DNA of 64,000 nt from Halobaculum sp. MBLA0147 (GTDB taxonomy: Archaea > Halobacteriota > Halobacteria > Halobacteriales > Haloferacaceae), in NCBI RefSeq assembly GCF_041361345.1, contig NZ_JBGKAD010000001.1:2542001-2606000 (forward strand), given 5' to 3'. Each line of letters starts with the position of its first letter. Positions within the stretch are counted from its first letter, which is position 1. Of this stretch, positions 54,970 through 57,686 are shown piece by piece. A program made the position numbers and the translations under genes. The notes under the pieces were generated by a model. That model ran no database searches. It was not told the DNA's origin and was given only the letters and a program-made list of their open reading frames with translations.

Positions 54970-55740
54970 ATGAGCGACACAGACACCGACACGACGGACG
55001 CACGGACGGACGGCGGCGGCACCGGAATCGTCGCGCCGGACGACGAGACGCCCACGTGGCGCGAGCGCAAGGAGCGCACCGAGGGACTCTCCCGGCTGAC
55101 GTACGAGTACTTCGAGCGCGCACGACGCGAGGACGAGGACCTCCGGCGGGAGTCGGACTACGTCGAGCGGGACGTGTTGGCGTTCCCGACGTGGCCCCAC
55201 GAGGTGATCCGGAACCTCGCGATCGGCTCCTTCTTCGTCGGGATGACGCTGTTCCTGGCGGCGACGCTCCCGCCACACATCGGCGCACCCGCCGACCCCG
55301 GGTCGACGCCGGCGATCATCCTGCCGGACTGGTACCTCTACTGGTCGTTCGGGCTGTTGAAGCTCGGGTTCCTCAACCCCGAGCTGTCGATCCTCGGTGG
55401 GTCGAAGCTGATGGCCGACCGGACGTACGGCGTGTTGGCGAACGTGGTCGTCGTCGGCTTCGTCGCGATCGTCCCGTTCCTCAACAAGGGCGCGGCACGA
55501 CGGCCGGTCGAACAGCCCTTCTGGGCGGCCGTCGGCGTGAGCGGCGTGACGTTCGCGTTCACCATCTCCGTGCTGTCGATCAAGAACCTCATGCCGATGA
55601 GCGTGAACCTGATCAACGACCTCGCGTTCCTGCTGCCCATCGTGACGGCGTGTGTCACCTACGCCGTGTTGAAGACGATGCGGGAGGGGTACATGTACGA
55701 CCTCAACCGGCGGTACTACCGACTGCGCCCGCCGAAGTGA
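54970..55740 (+). CDS. Cytochrome b C-terminal half (subunit IV-like)
   Basis: 256 aa with a 75-residue acidic cytoplasmic extension followed by about four membrane helices. The quinol-oxidation-site motif is LPDWYLYWSFGLLK (Pro119-Asp120-Trp121-Tyr122), Asp replacing the Glu of the common PEWY. FPTWPHEVIRNLAIG starts the membrane part. Together with the b6-like protein it completes a split cytochrome b. The operon promoter is probably the one before halocyanin. Confidence 0.9.
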   Translation: MSDTDTDTTDARTDGGGTGIVAPDDETPTWRERKERTEGLSRLTYEYFERARREDEDLRRESDYVERDVLAFPTWPHEVIRNLAIGSFFVGMTLFLAATLPPHIGAPADPGSTPAIILPDWYLYWSFGLLKLGFLNPELSILGGSKLMADRTYGVLANVVVVGFVAIVPFLNKGAARRPVEQPFWAAVGVSGVTFAFTISVLSIKNLMPMSVNLINDLAFLLPIVTACVTYAVLKTMREGYMYDLNRRYYRLRPPK

Positions 55741-55913
55741 CGGCACGAACCGCTGGCTCTCGACAGCGACGTGTCGTCCCTCTCCGTTCTCTCGATCTTG
55801 GACACCGCGGTTCTTCGCGATCGGTACCTGTAGACTCGATACCACCCTCCGACTGTGTGGCGGACTGTAGTTAGTCTATAACTTGTCTTTCGTCTATCAA
55901 TCTGTAGCTGGAA

Positions 55914-55928
55914 AAAGTTAAAAGTATA
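55914..55928 (+). promoter_or_regulatory. A/T-rich promoter of the Cys-rich exported protein gene
   Basis: AAGTTAAAAGTATAC lies 24-38 nt before the ATG at 55952. The whole stretch 55870-55928 (CTATAACTTG, CTATCAATC, GGAAAAAGTTAAAAG) is far more A/T-rich than other spacers in the window, suggesting a strong or specially regulated promoter, or imported DNA. Confidence 0.6.
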
Positions 55929-55951
55929 CCTGCAACAGGTGTGTTTGGGTC

Positions 55952-56470
55952 ATGTCCGAAGACAACGATCCGACACGGCGTGACGTAGTCAAGCAGACGA
56001 CCGGCGCAGCGGTCGGCGGGCTCGCACTCGCTGCGGGGTCGGGATCGGGTGCTGCGGCAGACGGTGAAGTGACGATGGAAACCGTACGAGACGCACTCGA
56101 GACGCACGGTACCGGGCTGATCGGGTACCTCGAGTCGGAGGGCCTCGTCGAGAGTCTCGACGAACTCGGGACGCCACGGCGAGCGAGTGCACCGGGTGGA
56201 CCGACACACCTCACCGCGGAGACCGAATCCGACGGTCGTCGGCTCTCCGTCCACGTCGACCCACGGGAGGGGGACGCGTACGCGGTCACCTACCGCGACG
56301 ACGACAGTGTCGAGATTCACCGAGCCGGGCAAGACGTGGAGACGGTTCCGTATCGGGCGGACCACCAACTGAACTGTGCGTGCCAGCGCGACATGGAGTG
56401 TCGCATCCGTAACGGACAGAACTACTGCTGTCGCAACGTCGACTGTTGGTACGGCCGGTGTTGCTTCTGA
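55952..56470 (+). CDS. Tat-exported protein with Cys-rich C-terminal peptide, unknown
   Basis: 172 aa. Twin-arginine signal (DPTRRDVVKQTTGAAVGGLA, about 6-25, cleavage near 36). A middle domain of about 100 residues (LETHGTGLIGYLESEGLVES, RRLSVHVDPREGDAYAVTYR) precedes a 31-residue tail with eight Cys: 142, 144, 150, 159, 160, 165, 170, 171, in a CxC-C-CC-C-CC pattern ending the protein. This plan (Tat signal, proregion, compact Cys-rich end) recalls halocin C8 precursors, but the Cys pattern is different and I find no known family. Disulfide-bonded peptide or metal site are both possible. It sits inside the cytochrome bc cluster with its own A/T-rich promoter. Confidence 0.7.
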   Translation: MSEDNDPTRRDVVKQTTGAAVGGLALAAGSGSGAAADGEVTMETVRDALETHGTGLIGYLESEGLVESLDELGTPRRASAPGGPTHLTAETESDGRRLSVHVDPREGDAYAVTYRDDDSVEIHRAGQDVETVPYRADHQLNCACQRDMECRIRNGQNYCCRNVDCWYGRCCF

Positions 56471-56615: not shown

Positions 56616-57686
56616 ATGTGGCTACGGCGGTCTGTGGAGTTCGTCCGGAAGACACTCCTTCGATCGTCCGTACCGGGCCGTGTGGACCTCCAGTTTCTCG
56701 GTACCGGTGGGAGCCAGCCCATCCCGTTGCCGACCTGTGACTGTCGGCTGTGTGTCGAGGCGCGCGAACGCGGTGCGCCCGCCGCACGTCGTGGGTACTC
56801 GATGCACCTGCCGGGGTGTGACGCGGTGATCGACGCGCCGGAACAGACGCTCGAGAACCTCGTGCGGTGGGGTGTCGACACGGTGGAGTACTGTCTGCTC
56901 ACCCACTGGCACCCCGACCACAGCGGTGGGCTCCGGGCGCTCCCGATGGGGCCGCTCGACACACGCGACGAGGAGACGTTCCGGGACGCGAAGCGACGGG
57001 CGGCACCGACGTTGGTGACGACCCGAGCGGTGTACGAGCGCGCCCGCGAGACGGTGGGTGTGCTCGGCTTCCACGTCGACGAGGGGTACGTCGACACGGT
57101 GTTCCTCGACGAACGGGCTGAGCCGTTCGACCTCGGGGGGGTCACGGTCGAGGCGCTGCCGTACCCGCTCGCCGACGACGAGTCGCCGCCACGCGCGACC
57201 GGGTTCCTCCTCCGTGGGTCACCCACGGGGGCGGCTGCGGCGAGGGACGGCGAGACGACACCCGAGGCGACGGGGTCGGACGCGACGACGACCGACGAGA
57301 CGAGGCTCGACGACGAGAGCGACGCGAGCGGGGACGACTCGACACGGACGACACTCGCGATCGTGCCGGACGACGCGGCGCGGTTCGACCCGACACGACT
57401 CCCCGACGACCTGGACGCGGCGGTGTTCGAGTGCGGCTACTTCACACACGACCCGAACGGCGAGCGAATCCGGTCGCCGGCACTGGAGACGGACGACCTC
57501 TCACACGAGGCGGTGCTGGAGCGCGCCGCGACGGTCGACGCAGATCGGACGTTCCTGTCGCACGTCGGGCACCAGTACGCGCGGAGTCACGCGGAACTGC
57601 GCGCGCTGGCGGCGGCGTACCGCGAGGATCCGGATCGACCGGACGGGGTCGTGTTCCCCCACGACGGACTGCGGGTGTCGATCTAG
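56616..57686 (+). CDS. PhnP-like metallo-beta-lactamase-fold hydrolase
   Basis: 356 aa. N-terminal GTGGSQPIPLPTCDCRLCVE (29-48) has the Cys trio (41, 43, 46) of the structural zinc in PhnP phosphodiesterases. The catalytic metal motif is THWHPDHSGGL (His97, His99, Asp101, His102), with further ligands in LSHVGHQYARS and VFPHDGL. An acidic Thr/Asp-rich insertion (about 205-245) is unlike bacterial PhnP. It probably hydrolyses a cyclic or phosphodiester nucleotide or sugar; no phosphonate genes are nearby. It lies between the Cys-rich gene and the DUF7315/7314 genes. Confidence 0.82.
   Translation: MWLRRSVEFVRKTLLRSSVPGRVDLQFLGTGGSQPIPLPTCDCRLCVEARERGAPAARRGYSMHLPGCDAVIDAPEQTLENLVRWGVDTVEYCLLTHWHPDHSGGLRALPMGPLDTRDEETFRDAKRRAAPTLVTTRAVYERARETVGVLGFHVDEGYVDTVFLDERAEPFDLGGVTVEALPYPLADDESPPRATGFLLRGSPTGAAAARDGETTPEATGSDATTTDETRLDDESDASGDDSTRTTLAIVPDDAARFDPTRLPDDLDAAVFECGYFTHDPNGERIRSPALETDDLSHEAVLERAATVDADRTFLSHVGHQYARSHAELRALAAAYREDPDRPDGVVFPHDGLRVSI

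Follow-up and report, generated by a model that had tools for sequence, protein, structure and literature searches.

A patchily distributed haloarchaeal family of Tat-exported proteins with cysteine-rich tails, and a member in the cytochrome bc cluster of Halobaculum sp. MBLA0147 that may encode a disulfide-bonded effector

Introduction

The window analyzed here is a stretch of 64,000 nucleotides from Halobaculum sp. MBLA0147. Within its cytochrome bc cluster lies a gene for a 172-residue protein (ORF172; ORF 55952–56470, + strand, ATG start; MSEDNDPTRRDVVKQ...CCF) which belongs to what is, judging from the sequences, a large and previously uncurated haloarchaeal family. The reading that we favor, tentatively and at somewhat less than even probability, is that ORF172 is a Tat-exported preproprotein in which the middle domain is a carrier and the tail, once freed, is a disulfide-bonded, halocin-like effector in competition. 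The product would be exported by the Tat pathway and its signal removed, the middle domain would serve either as carrier or as chaperone, and the last 31 residues would fold as a small domain with all eight cysteines in disulfides. The tail would then be freed, or exposed, probably by an extracellular subtilisin-type protease, and would be the active part, acting outside the cell against competing haloarchaea. The sequences establish the architecture, membership of the family, the constraint to even cysteine numbers, the diversification of tails in tandem paralogues and the accessory position of the gene; the disulfides, the cleavage and the antagonism are inferred.

For the family as a whole we propose, a little more cautiously still, a haloarchaeal arsenal of disulfide mini-proteins that would combine a shared Tat-exported carrier, a venom-like diversification of tails and lineage-specific immunity or export partners (an ABC-2 exporter, a polyprenyl-synthase-like protein, and a zinc-ribbon or small membrane protein). 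To our knowledge, archaeal antimicrobial peptides described at the gene level are few. The rules that describe the family (Tat signal, middle domain, even-cysteine tail and A/T-rich promoter), together with its recurrent neighbors, would lead to many haloarchaeal competition candidates, whose tails may serve either as weapons against neighboring cells or as signals to them. The family would also give new disulfide-rich scaffolds obliged to fold in very high salt, and would make it possible to examine directly how such peptides are folded, processed and tolerated by haloarchaea.

Results and discussion

The precursor and its promoter

The initial annotation had described a 172-residue product in which a twin-arginine signal precedes a middle domain and an eight-cysteine end of 31 residues, and the sequence of the open reading frame bears this out. 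The twin-arginine signal peptide covers residues 1–37 (RRDVVKQ...AAAD; 55952–56062, + strand) and is matched by Tat-signal profiles; the arginine pair is found at residues 9–10, within the motif RRDVVK at 9–14, with a hydrophobic stretch next to it. No lipobox cysteine is seen in the sequence, nor an anchor. A conserved middle domain, the putative carrier or pro domain, follows at residues 38–141 (56063–56374, + strand) and is recognized from the family alignment A5, a profile search and an AlphaFold2 model. The cysteine-rich tail, the proposed disulfide-bonded effector peptide, comprises the last 31 residues, 142–172 (56375–56467, + strand), and its eight cysteines at positions 142, 144, 150, 159, 160, 165, 170 and 171 form the pattern CxC, C, CC, C, CC. 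Against Pfam and NCBIfam the protein gave weak matches only, the best of them to Tat-signal models, and no known non-secreted family matched it.

Upstream of the gene is an A/T-rich promoter region (55864–55951, + strand), located by a GC scan of the window and by the position of a TATA-like TTAAAA at 55918. The contrast with the GC-rich background that had been pointed out earlier is real, with 31.7% GC at 55872–55931 against 69.5% for the whole window, and 55864–55931 is the sole place in the 64 kb where a 60-bp stretch has a GC content of 32% or less. The TTAAAA box lies 34 bp 5′ of the ATG, which fits the placing of haloarchaeal promoters and makes a leaderless or near-leaderless (short-leader) transcript likely. 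Low GC content is shared by the family promoters, as the mean GC content of the 60 bp upstream of 76 members is 32%, compared with 62% for their loci. Several member promoters (for example L076, L080, L092 and L101) also have in common a CTAG(A) element beside a AAATTTAA-like box, and this element could be a common regulatory site. The GC content of ORF172 by codon position is 0.71/0.52/0.73, and its GC3 of 0.73, below the 0.89–0.94 of nearby tabulated genes, is consistent with an acquired accessory gene.

A family reached through the middle domain

Searches with the tail alone in 394 genomes of the class gave chance matches only, and neither the 171 genomes of the taxonomic family of ORF172 nor the 394 class genomes yielded a relative sharing its tail. 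Scans of genome contigs and viral contigs yielded no relative, the plasmid collection held no match for the ORF172 protein, and the phage collection gave tail matches only at E-values of 5 or more. When the query was ORF172 without its signal, it found a protein in genome G413 (L015, E 1.5e-12) and two further, less closely related proteins with this layout in the genus of G413. L015 (CWCSDYSCSSEYDYQKCYQNGDTFYGRCNCF) is 172–180 residues long, its start being uncertain, and shares the plan of ORF172 with six cysteines in the tail. A member from another genome of the same genus shows 100% identity to a gene on a Halorussus aquaticus plasmid, annotated as ‘hypothetical protein’, a match that suggests the genus is Halorussus.

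Profiles built from L015 and the distant relatives reached many more members. Profile A5, which was built without the Tat region and has 48 rows, ORF172 among them, matches at least 46 of the 394 class genomes and at least 21 of 86 genera with an E-value of 1e-6 or better, and the distribution is patchy. Up to six loci were found per genome, a lower bound given that nine candidates per genome were scored, and the genome of ORF172 itself has at least three members. ORF172 matches A5 with an E-value of 4.6e-17, which is not independent because ORF172 is a row of A5; the independent link to the family is the match of its signal-less query to L015. In all we collected 85 non-redundant members, each with a Tat signal, a middle domain and a cysteine-rich tail, and this strengthens the view of ORF172 as a Tat-exported precursor with a compact cysteine-rich C-terminal peptide.

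Tat-signal profiles are the only profiles that ORF172 and the family members match in common. Pfam, NCBIfam and PHROGs returned no family for the 49 scanned members beyond Tat signals and single weak matches, and the same members had no match in PADLOC. An alignment of 16 rows was too diverse for a pattern search. In a literature search that covered few subscription papers we found no description of this family, and its novelty is to that extent provisional.

Even cysteine numbers and diversifying tails

Across the members the number of cysteines ranges from 4 to 22 and their spacing varies widely. The count after the signal is even in 83 of the 85 members, and the same holds for 56 of 57 when each 35%-identity cluster is given one vote (P about 4e-16 under random parity), where members were selected blind to parity and the clusters are not fully independent. 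The eight-cysteine tail of ORF172 follows this rule. Counts that are even while spacing is free are what fully paired disulfides would produce and a metal site would not, pointing to tails in which the cysteines of the members are all paired with each other rather than serving as metal ligands. The earlier suggestion that ORF172 might be a metal-binding protein is disfavored by the same two features. The most cysteine-dense tails seen are those of L142 and L152, with 20 and 22 cysteines in the mature part.

The tail is usually conserved as well as the middle domain, or better, in close orthologues (in one example 80% for the middle domain and 98% for the tail). Members also occur in tandem arrays of two or three (L063, L064/L162 and L147), and these paralogues keep the middle domain and change the tail, with 59% versus 38% at L063 and 60% versus 36% at L147; the exception is the tandem pair at L064, with 46% for the middle domain and 57% for the tail. 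Conservation in orthologues combined with divergence in tandem paralogues suggests that the tail is probably functional and is the diversifying part of these proteins.

No obvious conserved protease site was found at the junction with the tail, where there is only a mild excess of glutamine at −2 from the first cysteine. The genome of ORF172 contains seven S8 subtilases, at least three of which have Tat-like signals. Along with the precedent of HmHapP, a haloarchaeal precursor that is activated by a protease of this type (PMC12893001), these enzymes support the proposed release step.

Recurrent neighboring genes

Genes of four types are found repeatedly right next to members. One codes for a polyprenyl-synthase-like protein that has a DDxxD-type motif (YYDIxDDxxDxD) and a weak Pfam match (E 0.0016, below cutoff); it is present at seven loci in six genomes (L163, L169, L174, L061, L062, L162 and L172), always within about 220 bp of a member. 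A protein with two transmembrane segments and cysteine pairs resembling zinc ribbons is adjacent to members at six loci (L177, L162, L180, L054, L087 and L171); it has an N-terminal CxxC and C-terminal cysteine pairs (YTGxxRCxxCTxVN), and none of the three copies tested belonged to a Pfam family. An ABC-2 ATPase and permease adjoin members at four loci, with the ATPase at a fifth, and a two-transmembrane protein of 81–92 residues does so at two. At two loci of G161, a genome of the same genus as ORF172, members with 16 cysteines are followed about 15 bp downstream by the ABC-2 ATPase and permease (L146:3867–6271 and L143:5710–8098), an arrangement that resembles a compact operon of an effector plus exporter or immunity-like genes. 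The locus L162:4128–8510 in G273 has three tandem members between a polyprenyl-synthase-like gene and a zinc-ribbon membrane gene.

In the 44 larger regions ten copies of the polyprenyl-synthase-like, zinc-ribbon two-transmembrane and 81–92 residue types were called, and every one of them is located within 300 bp of a member; of about 470 non-member genes in all, only 79 are this close. Across 22 genomes seven of the nine polyprenyl-synthase-like copies are beside members and two are away from them. The zinc-ribbon membrane protein was rejected as a family-specific partner, as it is present in 1–5 copies per genome in all 22 genomes searched and is mostly away from members. ABC ATPases in general show no clear enrichment next to members, and only the ABC-2 pairs are suggestive. 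Immunity or export would be natural roles for these partner genes. None of them adjoins ORF172, and a search of its genome yielded no polyprenyl-synthase-like gene.

These neighbors bear on a reading in which the protein is never processed and acts as a two-domain extracellular protein in surface binding, adhesion or species recognition, with the tail as a stable recognition module. Conservation of the middle domain is high enough for a fold of its own, the tail diversification of paralogues would suit recognition as well, and no protease site is evident; the recurrent ABC-2 exporter and membrane-protein partners would however be better suited to an effector plus immunity, and the protein has no anchor or lipobox. 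We regard this as unlikely, while still deserving the most attention among the alternatives. It is more doubtful that the tail is a secreted, pheromone-like peptide signal sensed by kin cells: the same anatomy would serve and the tails vary between lineages, but genes for a linked receptor or sensor kinase do not recur next to many members. The preferred reading of a freed effector has its own points against it, namely that partner genes do not lie by ORF172, that a protease site is not obvious, that L015, the closest relative, has six tail cysteines, that the genomes searched held no protein sharing the ORF172 tail, and that the active HmHapP fragment is N-terminal.

Predicted structure of the tail

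AlphaFold2 models were made for the ORF172 protein only and from its single sequence. The mature protein was predicted with a mean pLDDT of 68 as two helices followed by beta strands or a sheet, and the tail alone, as a 35-residue peptide, was predicted at modest confidence with three strands (pLDDT 77). Foldseek found no significant match in the PDB with either model. A homology search with the tail and a prediction of its structure had been suggested as checks; the former gave chance matches, and the latter provided the three-stranded model and no significant fold match.

The three strands are one point in favor of a knottin (inhibitor cystine knot), such as a secreted inhibitor of proteases, to which C142 and C171 would add an extra pair. 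The spacing C144-x5-C150-x8-C159C160-x4-C165-x4-C170 is compatible with a knot, and the best sequence match of the tail among solved structures is the spider knottin PcFK1 (1x5v, E 0.035), followed by 2ll1 (E 0.61). The first of these E-values is nevertheless marginal and driven by cysteines and a YG, no knottin is among the Foldseek matches of the single-sequence tail model of modest confidence, and the tails of other members have unrelated cysteine spacings. The connectivity of a cystine knot is 1–4, 2–5, 3–6, in which C160 and C165 are not partners. In L015 the equivalents of these two cysteines are jointly missing and both tails are even, so that the Cys160–Cys165 loop (56429–56446, + strand) is probably closed by a disulfide that a cystine knot would not allow, on the thin evidence of one informative homologue. 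We consider a knottin improbable.

An accessory gene in the cytochrome bc cluster

The gene order around ORF172 is halocyanin, DUF7318 and the cytochrome b genes, and then, beyond ORF172, the PhnP-like protein, DUF7315 and DUF7314. ORF172 and the PhnP-like hydrolase thus part the cytochrome b genes from DUF7315/DUF7314, as the initial annotation had stated. The upstream neighbor is the cluster's second cytochrome b-type gene (54970–55742, + strand), which is outside the proposed system, and the downstream neighbor is the PhnP-like hydrolase of metallo-beta-lactamase fold (56616–57686, + strand), which is outside the ORF172 family. At the corresponding locus of G161 (L108) a spacer of about 60 bp without an ORF is all that separates the cytochrome b gene from the PhnP-like gene, and ORF172 is therefore an accessory gene at the bc site. 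The same synteny rules out a subunit of the cytochrome bc complex, and conservation as a fixed subunit in relatives, which the initial annotation had given as grounds for refutation, is not what the G161 locus displays.

The PhnP-like gene adjoins the cytochrome b genes in G161 too and has homologues in G162 and G252, so that a link with the bc cluster within this genus is possible. The other 170 genomes of the taxonomic family of ORF172 gave no protein match except a false hit, L007, a full-length match that was rejected because no matching gene exists at its location. Position in the bc cluster and eight cysteines might suggest a metal-binding or redox protein serving the complex, but this is very improbable for a gene that is missing from the bc locus of G161, whose closest homologue (L015) lies between unrelated genes, and whose family has 4 to 22 cysteines, nearly always even in number and without fixed spacing.

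Comparison with known systems

By analogy ORF172 may work like halocin C8. Both are haloarchaeal precursors with a long intervening region and a cysteine-rich C-terminal peptide, two of the three halocin C8 precursors compared have a Tat-type signal as ORF172 does, and hypothetical small proteins lie beside the gene. Halocin C8 itself has about 76 residues, ten cysteines and a hydrophobic core, whereas the tail of ORF172 has 31 residues and eight cysteines and is polar. The family profile matches halocin C8 precursors mainly in the Tat region, and a profile–profile comparison by hhalign, addressing the precursors between signal and C-terminus, gave a probability of 0.1% (E 0.53). On this basis we rejected membership of that family; the query used for halocin C8 was checked by its matches, which are annotated ‘halocin C8-like domain-containing protein’. 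The likeness proposed earlier holds for the architecture and does not extend to detectable homology; the cysteine pattern differs, as noted with it, in both number and spacing. ORF172 is similar to halocin C8 in plan and not in sequence, and for this reason we do not file it as a member.

HmHapP (HFX_0892) of Haloferax mediterranei is a secreted precursor for which activation by an extracellular subtilisin-type protease into an antagonistic peptide has been demonstrated (PMC12893001). Its active fragment is an N-terminal two-helix peptide, and the paper makes no mention of cysteine or disulfide (PMC12893001). The active part of ORF172 is in contrast proposed to be C-terminal and its activation by a protease is only proposed, and the two are likened by description, not by sequence.

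Precursor superfamilies of the conotoxin type have a conserved signal and pro region and a diversified cysteine-rich mature peptide. We claim no homology between these and the haloarchaeal members, and export differs, being through the secretory pathway in the former and by archaeal Tat in the latter.
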